A stretch of 32,894 nucleotides of DNA from Dehalococcoidia bacterium (GTDB lineage: Bacteria; Chloroflexota; Dehalococcoidia; UBA2979), in assembly GCA_009379925.1 (NCBI GenBank), contig WHSU01000038.1, positions 1 through 32,894 of the forward strand. The letters run 5' to 3'. How positions within the stretch are numbered: the first letter of the stretch is position 1; each line of letters starts with the position of its first letter. Below the pieces are notes generated by a model. That model was given only the letters and a program-made list of their open reading frames with translations. It made no database searches and was not told the origin of the DNA. The translations under genes and the position numbers were made by a program. Shown piece after piece: positions 21,884 to 26,925 of this stretch.

Positions 21884-22771
21884 CTACCGGAACACGACCG
21901 TCTTGTGGCCGTGTACGAACACCCGGTCCTCGATGTGCCACTGCACGGCGCGGGCGAGGACGGAGCGCTCCACCTCGCGGCCGTGGCGCACGAGGTCCTC
22001 GCGCGTGTCTCGATGCGAGACGCGCACGACGTCCTGCTCGATGATCGGGCCCTCGTCCAGCTCCTCGGTCGCGTAGTGCGCGGTGGCCCCGATGATCTTC
22101 ACGCCGCGCTCGAACGCCCTTCCGTAGGGGTCGGCCCCCGCAAACGCGGGGAGGAACGAGTGGTGGATGTTGATCACGCGGGAGGGATACTGCTCGATGA
22201 AGGCGCCGGAGAGGATCTGCATGTAGCGCGCCATGACTACCAGGTCCACCTCCGTCTCGCGGAGCTGCTCCAGCACCTCGCGCTCCTGTTCGCCCTTCGT
22301 GTCGGGCGTCACCGAGAGATGGCGGAAGGGGACGCCGAACGACTCCACGTCGCCGCGCAGCCGGTCGTGGTTGGAGATCACGAGTGGGATCTCGATGGGC
22401 AGTTCGCCGCGCCGCCAGCGCCATAGCAGGTCCAGCAGGCAGTGGTCCGAGCGCGACACCAGGATCCCGACGCGCGGCCGGCGGTCGCTCAGTGAGATGC
22501 GCCAGTCCATGTCGAAGCGGGGCGCCACCTGGTCCTCGAACAGCCGCTCCAACTCCTCGGACGGCACATCGAGGCCGCCCAGCTCGAACTCCGAGCGCAT
22601 GAAGAAACGGCCGTAGCCACCGGCCGAGGAGTACTGGTCCGCCTGCACGATGTTCGCGCCGTGCTCGTACAGAAAGCGCGACACCGCCGCGACGATGCCC
22701 GGGCGGTCCGCGCACTGCACCAGCAGCCGCGCGGTCCCGGCGTTCGAGGGCGGCGGTTCGATCTCCACCAT
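21884..22771 (-). CDS. purU: Formyltetrahydrofolate deformylase
   Basis: The 295 residues have an N-terminal ACT domain ([20 protein letters not shown], about 12-90). A formyltransferase-like hydrolase domain follows, with [38 protein letters not shown] and [17 protein letters not shown], holding the catalytic Asn-His-Asp set. PurU hydrolyses 10-formyl-THF to formate and THF, balancing one-carbon pools and feeding formate to PurT in some organisms. Length is near E. coli PurU (280). The ATG at 22771 is chosen because a TATGAT box ends 7 nt before it; an ATG at 22783 adds four residues but would lie within or upstream of that box. Confidence 0.95.
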
Positions 22772-22778
22772 GCGCCCG

Positions 22779-22784
22779 ATCATA
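22779..22784 (-). promoter_or_regulatory. -10 box (TATGAT) 7 nt before purU ATG; likely leaderless promoter
   Basis: TATGAT is followed by CGGGCGC and then ATG, placing the expected transcription start at the start codon. No Shine-Dalgarno sequence is present for either candidate ATG. Confidence 0.55.
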
Positions 22785-22859: not shown

Positions 22860-23870
22860 CTAGGTCCGTGGCAACGGCCGGTTGAGCCGCCCAACCGGGA
22901 CCTCGAGGTGCAGCCGGTGCTCCTGCGGCAGAAAACACTGCCGGTCGTCGCACGCCTGGTAGCGCACCGTCACGTCCAGCGGCACTGTTTCACCGTCGGT
23001 GACGGTTGAGGTCAGCGGCACCGCGATCTCAATCTCCCCGTCCAGCACCTCGAAGTCCTCGTCGACGCCCGCCATCCGGAAGGGACGGGTCGGCGGGTAC
23101 TCGCTCGCGCCGACCTGGACGGCTTCCGGTGCCGCGACTTCCACCTCGGTGGCGAAGTACCCGCTCCGAACCTCGCGCCCGTAGATGTGGAGCCCGGGCT
23201 CCAGGGCGAAGCGGACATACAGGTTGACGCGCTGCTGAGGGACGAGTTGCTCGGCGGCCAGGGTGGCGGAAACGTGCGCCTGGGCCGACGACGCCTCCGC
23301 GTGCGGGTTCTCGCTCATGTCGAGCGTCGCGCCGAAGCGGCTACGTAGCACGGACTGCGCCGAGTCCCGCACCTGGTAGCGCTGGTGGAAGACCTTCTCA
23401 ACCACGACACCGTCTTCGTCCACGAGGTAAAGGCCCGGGTACGGGATGCCGTAGACGCTCTCCTCGGGCCGGACCAGCGTGTTCAGGATGCCGAAGCGAC
23501 GGATCACCTCGGAGTTCTCGTCCGACAACAGCGGGTACTCGATGCCGAACTCGTCCGAGAAGCGGCCGAGCACCTCCTGAGAGTCGTAGGACACGGCGAA
23601 GACGCGGATGCCCGCTGCGTTAAAGCCATCGAGGTAGCGCTGCAGCTGCACGAGCTGCGTGCGGCAGTACGGTCACCAGCGCGCAGAGCGGTAGAAGACG
23701 ACCAGCGCACGATGGCTCCCTCGCGCCTCGGAGAACGTGACGGTCCGTCCGTGCTGGTCGGGCAGCGTGAAGTCGGGCAGTCGCTCGCCCGCGTCCGGCC
23801 CTGAGGGCGGCTCGCCCTCCGGGTTGCGACGGCTGGGCGGAAGCTCTTGCTCGGTACGCTCGCTGGTCAT
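22860..23870 (-). CDS. Selenocysteine-containing redoxin fused to DsbD-alpha-like domain (in-frame TGA)
   Basis: Reading through TGA at 23673-23675 gives a 336-residue protein starting [20 protein letters not shown]. Residues 30-180 are an AhpC/TSA-like redoxin: [28 protein letters not shown], then U66-P67-Y68-C69, [11 protein letters not shown] and [14 protein letters not shown]. The usual active site is W-C-P-Y-C, so the TGA replaces the first, catalytic cysteine. Residues 205-330 resemble the DsbD-alpha/DsbC-corrector domain, with C307-x4-C312 in YQACDDRQC. The halves are in the same frame with no base gained or lost. It probably reduces peroxides or disulfides with its selenol. No signal peptide is seen. 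Sec machinery is not in the window. The alternative is a TGC-to-TGA mutation or error. Confidence 0.85.
23642..23658 (-). promoter_or_regulatory. Candidate bacterial SECIS hairpin downstream of the TGA
   Basis: In the mRNA, GCAGCU pairs with AGCUGC around a CGUGC loop, starting 14 nt after the UGA; the loop GU is at mRNA positions 25-26 counting U of UGA as 1. In E. coli fdhF the SelB-recognised loop GU lies at about 23-24. An alternative fold pairs CUGC/GCAG and GCAC/GUGC around the same region. Spacing and loop fit a bacterial SECIS, but this is hand folding only. Confidence 0.5.
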
Positions 23871-23890: not shown

Positions 23891-24100
23891 CTACGTTGCG
23901 TCCACGCGGTCGATGCGGTCGACGATGCCGAGGATGGCGTGCACCTCGATGGCGTCGCCGGGCCGAGGGTCGGCGTAGACCATGTCGTGCGAGAGGCGCG
24001 CCTGCTGGGACTGCTCCTGGCCATCGGGCCGGTAGATCAGCTGGTAGTACCGGGTCCCGTGCAGTTCGTACGGCATCACCACCTGCAGTTCCGCGCGCAT
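23891..24100 (-). CDS. Small hypothetical protein (69 aa) upstream of the redoxin
   Basis: The product starts MRAELQVVMPYELHGTRYYQ and continues with RLSHDMVYADPRPGDAIEVH, a compact beta-rich sequence with no membrane segment. GAGGAGG lies 5 nt before the ATG, a strong ribosome site, and a TACGAT -10-like box is at 24129-24134. The redoxin starts 20 nt after its stop, so both are probably cotranscribed. I do not recognise the family. Confidence 0.8.
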   Translation of the reverse strand: MRAELQVVMPYELHGTRYYQLIYRPDGQEQSQQARLSHDMVYADPRPGDAIEVHAILGIVDRIDRVDAT

Positions 24101-24174: not shown

Positions 24175-24651
24175 TCAACGGACGCGTAACACCTCGTGGC
24201 ACTCGACCGTGGCGTCGATGCCGACGCCGTCCGCGGTCGTGCCCTCGATGGTGATGGTGGCCGTGTCGCCACGGTCGTCCACCGTGACGGTGCCGCTGCC
24301 GATTGGCTCGGCGTCCGGCAGCGTGTTGATGTCGTAGTTGTTGCCCTCGACGAACGGGCCGATGGTTGCGGTCGTGCGGAACACCGAGGTGCCCACGGCA
24401 GCGTCGGTCGTGCTCGGGACGATCAATTGGAGGCTGGTGAAGCCCTCCTGTCCGTCCCTGCTGTACTGCAGCCCGAAGCCGTCCACGCCGGTCAGCCCGT
24501 AGCTGCACCCGCCGTCCTGCGCCGTGGCGTCGTACTCGCCCTCGTGCGCGCCGCCGATGAGCGTGAGGTCCAGCGTCACGATCCCGTCGTCGTCGCCGCA
24601 ACCGGCAAGGAACGCCACCACGAGCAGCGAGCCGAGCATCAAGCGGCGCAC
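24175..24651 (-). CDS. Putative lipoprotein of unknown function
   Basis: From GTG 24651 the product has 158 residues and a clear lipoprotein signal: charged start, hydrophobic LMLGSLLVVAFLAGC with lipobox LAGC (C18), then GDDDG. The Asp after Cys would suit export or surface retention. The mature part is beta-rich and acidic (LDLTLIGGAHEGEYDATAQ) and has two more cysteines. AAGGG lies just upstream of the GTG; the open frame continues upstream to 24744 but would bury the signal peptide. The family is not recognised. It is the divergent neighbour of the Cys-rich small protein. Confidence 0.8.
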   Translation of the reverse strand: MRRLMLGSLLVVAFLAGCGDDDGIVTLDLTLIGGAHEGEYDATAQDGGCSYGLTGVDGFGLQYSRDGQEGFTSLQLIVPSTTDAAVGTSVFRTTATIGPFVEGNNYDINTLPDAEPIGSGTVTVDDRGDTATITIEGTTADGVGIDATVECHEVLRVR

Positions 24652-26049: not shown

Positions 26050-26925
26050 ATGACCGCTTCGCTGATCACCTCGTGCCAGGCGCCCGGCGTGGACTTCCTC
26101 TACCCCTCGGTCGCCGCGTACCTCACGCGCGTACTCGGGCACCCGTTCACGGCGGTGGACGACCGGCCGTGGGAGGCGCGGATGACGCTCATCGAGTCAG
26201 GCGGCGCGCTGCTTGGCCACGTCTGCGGGCCGCAGTACCTCGCGCGTGCGGAGGCGCTGGCGCCCGTGGTCGCGCCCGTACCCCTCGGAGCGCGCTACGG
26301 TGGCCGACCGGTCTACTTCTCGGACCTCGTCGTGCGCGCGGATGCGCCCTACCGCGACCTCGACGGGCTGCGCGGCGCCCGATGGGCCTACAACGAGCCG
26401 ACCTCACATTCCGGCTACGGGGCGATGGCCTGCGCGCTCGCCGGACGAGGCCTGACCTGGGCGCACTTCGATGAGGTCATCGAGGCAGGCAGCCACGACG
26501 CCGCCATCGCGATGATCCTCGCGGGCGGGGTGGACGGCGCGGCCATCGACAGCACGGTGCTTGAGATGGCAATCGAGGCAGCCCCGGCGCTCGCCGCCGC
26601 GCTGCGCGTCATCGATTCGGTGGGACCGAGCCCCAGCCCGCCGATCGTCATGCAGCGACAGGCGGATGCCAGCCTTCGGGTCGCGGTCCGCGAGGCGCTC
26701 ACCGTGATGCACGAGGACCCAGAGGGCAGTGAAGCACTGCGCCGCGCGCACATCGAGCGGCTCGCGCCGGTGGATGCCTCGGACTACGAGGTGGTCCGGG
26801 AGATGTGGCAACGAGGGCAGGCGGCGGGTGTGCCGTCAGCCATGGGCGACCGGCTTATCGGCGACGTGCAGGGCGACCGTGCCGAACATCAACTGGCGCA
26901 CCTCGCGGACGCGGAAACCGTGTGA
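26050..26925 (+). CDS. PhnD-like substrate-binding protein (no signal peptide)
   Basis: The 291 residues resemble the phosphate/phosphonate (PhnD/PtxB) binding-protein superfamily: LIESGGALLGHVCGPQYLAR, VPLGARYGGRPVYFSDLVVR, LRGARWAYNEPTSHSGYG and the helix GSHDAAIAMILAGGVDGAAID. There is no signal peptide or lipobox and no permease or ATPase neighbours, so it may be a cytoplasmic binding or enzymatic derivative (thiamine-biosynthesis-type proteins share the fold). AAGGAG lies 6 nt before the ATG. The last 90 nt overlap the 3' end of the convergent ubiE/menG gene. Confidence 0.85.
   Translation: MTASLITSCQAPGVDFLYPSVAAYLTRVLGHPFTAVDDRPWEARMTLIESGGALLGHVCGPQYLARAEALAPVVAPVPLGARYGGRPVYFSDLVVRADAPYRDLDGLRGARWAYNEPTSHSGYGAMACALAGRGLTWAHFDEVIEAGSHDAAIAMILAGGVDGAAIDSTVLEMAIEAAPALAAALRVIDSVGPSPSPPIVMQRQADASLRVAVREALTVMHEDPEGSEALRRAHIERLAPVDASDYEVVREMWQRGQAAGVPSAMGDRLIGDVQGDRAEHQLAHLADAETV

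Follow-up and report, generated by a model that had tools for sequence, protein, structure and literature searches.

A reading frame interrupted by one TGA

On the minus strand of a contig from a Dehalococcoidia bacterium (WHSU01000038.1, assembly GCA_009379925.1), a redoxin gene is interrupted by one in-frame TGA. In the predicted active-site motif, W-U-P-Y-C, it takes the place that the first Cys of W-C-P-Y-C has in relatives. Is this codon a stop, or is it read as selenocysteine (Sec) in a gene that continues into a second redox domain? We addressed the question in the window, the whole 32,894-nucleotide stretch that was analysed, and in the related genomes. An earlier note, made from the sequence alone, had described two same-phase frames parted by a single TGA, and this is what we found at 23673-23675, with both flanks as claimed. 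Its prediction that standard annotation would yield a short 5' fragment and a separate 3' gene from GTG 23651 was borne out for the 3' gene by mechanical gene calling, which returned an ORF corresponding to database entry P0002. Residues are numbered here as in P0001, which begins one codon before the ATG, so that U67 is residue 66 of the protein. The start codon is likely the ATG at 23868-23870, just after an upstream 69-aa ORF and preceded by GAGG.

A Pfam scan of the read-through protein placed an AhpC-TSA domain around the TGA and a DsbD_N domain near the C-terminus, each above its curated cut-off. The second match agrees with the C-terminal DsbD-alpha-like domain proposed in the earlier note, with C308 and C313 as its C-x4-C. 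Fold comparison supported a peroxiredoxin fold for the first domain and gave a clear DsbD-alpha/ScsB fold for the second. We consider it highly probable that the gene joins a peroxiredoxin-like (Prx-like) domain, with a predicted Sec codon at the first active-site position, to a DsbD-alpha-like domain that likely supplies electrons.

Table 1. Features of the locus, in coordinates of the window.
Feature	Position	Strand	Remarks
Selenoprotein candidate gene	22860..23870	-	ATG 23868-23870 to TAG 22860-22862; 336 residues with the TGA read through
In-frame TGA, predicted Sec codon	23673..23675	-	residue 66 from the ATG; U67 in P0001
Second active-site residue, Cys of U-P-Y-C	23664..23666	-	C70 in P0001; invariant in 16 aligned rows
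Predicted bacterial SECIS hairpin	23642..23658	-	6-bp stem, CGUGC loop; loop 20 nt after the TGA
AhpC-TSA / redoxin domain	23397..23789	-	P0001 residues 29-159; Pfam PF00578, 107.9 bits (curated cut-off 26); peroxiredoxin fold
DsbD-alpha-like domain	22914..23261	-	P0001 residues 205-320; Pfam PF11412 (DsbD_N), 48.1 bits (curated cut-off 25); DsbD-alpha/ScsB fold
C-x4-C of the DsbD-alpha-like domain	22935..22952	-	C308 and C313 in P0001
ORF from GTG 23651	22860..23651	-	263 aa; output of conventional gene calling; database entry P0002
69-aa ORF	23891-24100	-	just upstream; without Pfam match
purU-type gene (ACT + formyl transferase)	21884-22783	-	directly downstream

The neighbouring genes recur in part. 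Counting the window, 8 of 30 loci have the 69-aa ORF upstream in the same orientation (66-72% identity in the other 7), and 13 of the 30 have purU downstream, also in the same orientation.

The TGA column in homologues

Homology extends across the TGA. Eleven full-length relatives with Cys (P0003-P0008 and P0010-P0014; 338-347 aa) share 51-55% identity with the read-through protein across 96-100% of its length. The protein database search returned 547 homologues, and the best 120 of these were examined for their start position: 101, including the window's own ORF, start after the TGA, 18 carry Cys and 1 carries Trp. Seventy of those 101 begin at the place equivalent to GTG 23651. Since 101 of the 120 matches listed start after the TGA, annotation hides the family, most of the listed entries being fragments cut at one place. 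The entry with Trp, P0091, reads RSARWWPYC, as if a TGA had been translated as Trp.

In genomes of the window's class, the gene was present in 29 of 393, and every one of the 29 has a copy with TGA. The codon aligned to U67 was TGA at all 30 loci from these genomes, an agreement beyond chance, and the matches begin at residue 1-25, well ahead of the TGA. In three of the 29 genomes there is a TGC copy as well (L119-L121); G110, G227 and G290 each combine Sec and Cys paralogues. The protein of L015, from a Chloroflexi MAG, is identical to that of G144 from the same family, and the window lies near Chloroflexota (Dehalococcoidia) drafts.

More distant TGA forms come from Acidobacteriota and from one Desulfobacterales MAG. 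In the Acidobacteriota class, a search at E <= 1e-40 found a relative in at least 76 of 193 genomes, 66 with TGA, at least 8 with Cys only and 2 partial; the 76 and the 8 are lower bounds because this search missed the Cys gene of G400 (L022). The codon in the Sec column was TGA at 22 of 30 Acidobacteriota loci and TGC or TGT at the other 8. The TGA was placed in the Sec column for these 22 loci, and for the remaining TGA genomes it is located only as a TGA inside the match, in a search that also shows a TAG in four rows and two TGAs in one.

The earlier note had proposed the homologue alignment at the TGA as a check, and the column holds TGA or Cys, the Trp of database entry P0091 excepted. 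When 85 rows (59 TGA, 26 Cys) were placed on a maximum-likelihood tree, its well-supported branches forced at least 10 exchanges between Sec and Cys. Repeated exchange of this kind fits a Sec/Cys pair; a decaying gene would be expected to look different.

Other genes surfaced in these searches. L026 is a different Acidobacteria redoxin (YW*PFC), matched in the redoxin part only and without a DsbD domain, from a genome that has SelA. L051, L054 and L060, from Actinobacteria and Acidobacteria MAGs, encode peroxiredoxins in which a TGA falls on the TxxC position (TSG*T, TPG*T), and they look like the known TxxU peroxiredoxin. Among plasmid records, 124 had matches and none reached 80% of the query; the family is therefore not plasmid-borne in that collection.

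Selenocysteine machinery

The earlier note had also named selA, selB, selD and tRNA-Sec as genes to look for in the same genome, and all four turned up in its draft assembly (71 contigs, 87% complete): SelA at 439 bits, SelB at 305 bits, SelD at 367 bits and a tRNA-Sec at 70.6 bits with anticodon tca (UCA). The selD gene (L013, G000 contig C55, 193809-194747) has an in-frame TGA of its own at CAG-U-AGK, which we take to be the usual Sec/Cys position of SelD.

Across the class, SelA was found in 254 of 393 genomes and tRNA-Sec in 257, the latter with stricter filters that can lose weak matches. Among the 29 genomes with the gene, 26 have SelA, 24 have tRNA-Sec and 28 have either (Fisher p 0.002 for the gene against SelA and 0.03 against tRNA-Sec, uncorrected for kinship). 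Because SelA is common in the class, the association with SelA is an enrichment and not exclusive. The sole exception among the 29 is G375 (75% complete), in which neither SelA nor tRNA-Sec was found.

The 13 genomes behind the named loci gave SelA in 11 of 11 with TGA and in 0 of 2 with TGC; the 11 include the different redoxin L026, and they overlap with the other sets, sharing four genomes with that of the class and one (L025) with that of the Acidobacteriota. In the Acidobacteriota class, 57 of the 66 genomes with TGA have SelA, compared with 3 of the 8 with Cys only. Counting either SelA or tRNA-Sec gives 63 of 66 and 3 of 8, with the tRNA-Sec search covering 22 chosen genomes. Neither was found in three TGA genomes in these searches, and G400 and G401 likewise returned no SelA and no tRNA-Sec.

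A SECIS-like hairpin behind the TGA

Limits for bacterial SECIS elements given in a passage of PMC13188914 are a loop of 3-9 nt with a G in its first two positions, a spacing of 16-37 nt and an MFE <= -7.5. The window's hairpin falls within all of them (CGUGC loop, 20 nt, -7.5 kcal/mol), the energy only just. In 31 of 35 distinct TGA sequences, a hairpin 20-21 nt after the TGA lies within every limit, and the other 4 fail on energy only. This set consists of the 39 TGA rows above 150 bits less 4 duplicates; the two TGA rows below that threshold are L025, which is within all limits, and the different redoxin L026, which has no hairpin at the equivalent place.

The 51 nt from the TGA onward align without gaps in the 35 sequences, and 92.7% of cells in stem columns 18-24/28-34 are paired. 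Shifting the partner by 1-3 columns lowers pairing to 13.5-55.5%, and RNAalifold recovers 6 of the stem pairs unprompted. Three of five measures, namely cells paired, covariation score and cells with two-sided changes, were reached by 0 of 500 shuffles, with the caveat that related rows can beat shuffles. The other two, pairs with a two-sided change (reached by 289 of 500 shuffles) and further pair types (468 of 500), were not exceptional. The pair between the wobble base of a Gln codon and the first base of a Leu codon occurs as CAG with CTG in 29 sequences and as CAA with TTG in 6, with no mixtures; these changes are not explained by the protein because both are synonymous. Another stem pair changes from G-C to C-G in three sequences.

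Cys genes served as controls. Each of the three TGC paralogues of the class has 5 of 7 pairs and no stable hairpin, so that the element is broken in 3 of 3. In Acidobacteriota, all 22 TGA loci are within every SECIS limit and none of the 8 Cys loci is, with means of 6.9 and 5.0 stem pairs of 7, respectively. Among all 13 Cys genes examined, one (L022) is within all limits. L022 has the full 7-bp stem and another Cys gene, L023, has 5 of 7 pairs; they keep stem pairs because the QLVEL codons are nearly self-complementary. The common stem is thus partly what GC-rich QLVEL codons give anyway. Folded without constraint, the window's 56-nt segment is less stable than the majority of its shuffles (z +1.8), and only with some segment lengths does the hairpin come out as the optimum. 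Scanning the window against Rfam yielded nothing above the gathering scores.

The DsbD-alpha-like domain

Searched by sequence against the PDB, the C-terminal piece alone found no match, and a profile search reached DsbD-alpha chains at E 0.016-0.05 only. In DsbD and ScsB the alpha-type domain is N-terminal, whereas the candidate's copy is placed after the redoxin. The full DsbD architecture was absent from the chain: a Pfam scan up to E 0.1 found neither the membrane beta domain nor the gamma domain. No signal peptide is evident in the protein of the window's family, which is probably located in the cytosol, unlike periplasmic DsbD. Three Acidobacteriota-type Cys relatives have hydrophobic, signal-like N-termini.

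Two further observations concern this domain and its possible partners. A clade of paralogues from the same bacterial family (L112, L113, L118 and L119-L121) carries W-U-A-F-C or W-C-A-F-C and has lost the C-x4-C; G110 has both a Sec and a Cys copy. Elsewhere in the genome there is a DsbD_TM match (L152, L153, G000 contig C49), possibly part of a reductant chain.

Alternative readings

Could the TGA be a Cys codon, TGC or TGT, lost to decay or to sequencing error? Taken by itself, a single stop in a draft contig allows both, and there are Cys relatives, but the same column holds TGA at 30 of 30 class loci and 22 of 30 Acidobacteriota loci, with TGC or TGT at the other 8. The TGA recurs in 29 of 393 genomes of one class and 66 of 193 of the other, conservation extends to either side of the codon, and compensatory changes occur downstream of it; we regard decay or error as almost certainly wrong. 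Gene callers report two separate proteins, one a short piece of the redoxin that stops at the TGA, the other 263 aa long and started from GTG 23651, and most of the best 120 matches start after the TGA, many of them at the equivalent of that GTG. Such a break would split the catalytic motif, so that neither half would have the redox pair of the redoxin domain, while the class matches begin ahead of the TGA and the Cys relatives are single chains, which makes two proteins very improbable. A genome-wide code change, with TGA decoded as another amino acid such as Trp, would give just the residue seen in P0091. TGA nevertheless ends a ubiE-family gene at 26836 and an ORF at 24175 within the window, and the ubiE-family stop means that it is not reassigned genome-wide; tRNA-Sec, SelA, SelB and a TGA-containing SelD are present, and 18 of the 19 homologues covering the column, among the matches listed, have Cys. 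We give recoding next to no credence. On the recurrence of the TGA and the Sec machinery, we rejected the pseudogene, sequencing-error, two-protein and recoded-genome readings. The translation through the TGA that the earlier note had proposed is supported by the machinery, by the TGA/Cys column and by the SECIS-like hairpin with its compensatory changes, and Sec insertion is predicted. This is very probably a real, hidden selenoprotein family.

Another alternative concerns the second domain. The Sec reading could be right and the DsbD-alpha-like domain structural or partner-binding, passing no electrons. Paralogues L112, L113 and L118 keep the TGA and have lost the C-x4-C, and the apparently cytosolic location of the window-family protein differs from that of periplasmic DsbD. 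Against this, the C-x4-C with its usual flank is present in 73 of 85 rows, and each Cys reaches at least 90% conservation across the 66 rows of alignment A3 and is invariant in the 62 rows of alignment A4, from which P0112, a protein without them, was left out beforehand. We think a domain that passes no electrons somewhat unlikely, though a serious contender.

Proposed mechanism and significance

Under the preferred reading, a Sec-containing Prx-like domain with an electron-supplying partner, the mRNA hairpin beginning 14 nt after the UGA would act as a bacterial SECIS, as its covariation and shape suggest. SelB carrying Sec-tRNA(UCA) would bind it, and the UGA would be read as Sec and not as a stop. 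The Sec of W-U-P-Y-C may then attack a peroxide or a disulfide, and a selenenylsulfide would be closed with the second Cys of the motif, which sits where peroxiredoxins have their peroxidatic Cys. The C-x4-C of the C-terminal domain could reduce this selenenylsulfide within the same chain and then be recharged from a donor of thioredoxin type, much as happens when DsbD-alpha serves thioredoxin-fold partners. A fuller version of this model seems to us evenly poised between right and wrong: a large family in Chloroflexota, Acidobacteriota and Thermodesulfobacteriota, truncated in annotation, whose Sec-Prx-like domain has its own DsbD-alpha reductant. In this version an immunoglobulin-like dithiol domain would regenerate the selenenylsulfide in cis, and the enzyme would work in the cytosol of Chloroflexota but outside the cytosol of Acidobacteriota.

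The predicted selenoprotein family occurs in 29 of the 393 genomes sampled from one class and in at least 76 of 193 from another, the latter count covering both Sec and Cys forms. Databases hold it mostly as fragments that begin after the Sec codon, and the use of selenium by environmental Chloroflexota and Acidobacteriota is therefore probably under-counted. In this fusion, the idea of a selenoenzyme that carries its own dithiol reductant can be put to the test, and the repeated Sec/Cys exchanges, together with Sec and Cys paralogues in one genome, allow a direct comparison of why Sec is kept.

Comparison with known systems

Compared with the AhpE and BCP (PrxQ) peroxiredoxins, the candidate lacks the PxxxTxxC motif: S63 replaces Pro and Sec/Cys67 replaces Thr, with C70 kept. 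It scored 46.8 bits with the model for the SelL-related redox protein (NF040769, cut-off 120), and no NCBIfam model reached its cut-off for the candidate protein or the four relatives tried.

Among the closest known systems are selenoproteins with a Sec in a UxxC motif. Prx-like UxxC (PF00578) and a UxxC redoxin family (PF08534) are listed among prokaryotic selenoprotein families in passages of the reviews PMC13188914 and PMC9312934, and the Sargasso Sea study, in the passage bearing on them, already counts Prx-like UxxC selenoproteins as known (PMC1088965). A passage of the GOS study lists several Prx-like subfamilies, including 'Prx-like 1', and describes a fusion of Prx-like 3 with a domain, Unknown_3, whose three conserved Cys include a CxxC (PMC2398784). 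The candidate has the features of a Prx-like UxxC selenoprotein: a score above the AhpC-TSA cut-off, TGA at the first position of the motif with Cys relatives, a SECIS-like hairpin and Sec genes. As Table 1 of PMC13188914 and passages of PMC1088965 and PMC2398784 describe them, the Prx-like thiol:disulfide oxidoreductase selenoproteins (PF00578, UxxC/UxxU) share with it the AhpC-TSA domain, Sec as the first residue of UxxC and a predicted bacterial SECIS. By these descriptions of a kind whose reference protein is WP_010940744.1, the candidate differs in adding a C-terminal DsbD-alpha-like domain with C-x4-C.

The PF08534 selenoprotein and the GOS case are likewise UxxC redoxins, and the GOS case is also joined to a Cys-bearing domain. 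Unknown_3 differs by its description, with three Cys including CxxC where the candidate's pair is C-x4-C, although the two may overlap. TsoB (NF045694) is also called DsbD fusion-like (rhodanese/DsbD fusion-like) in Table 1 of PMC13188914 but, unlike the candidate, has a rhodanese domain and a UxxxxU motif with two Sec. Among titles, abstract openings and passages of the literature, we found no account of an AhpC-TSA/DsbD-alpha fusion as a selenoprotein. One correction applies to the reading in the earlier note: judged against passages of PMC13188914, PMC1088965 and PMC2398784, the redox chemistry is not new because UxxC Prx-like selenoproteins are an established kind. The DsbD-alpha fusion as a predicted selenoprotein appears new, as does the extent of a family hidden by truncated annotation.
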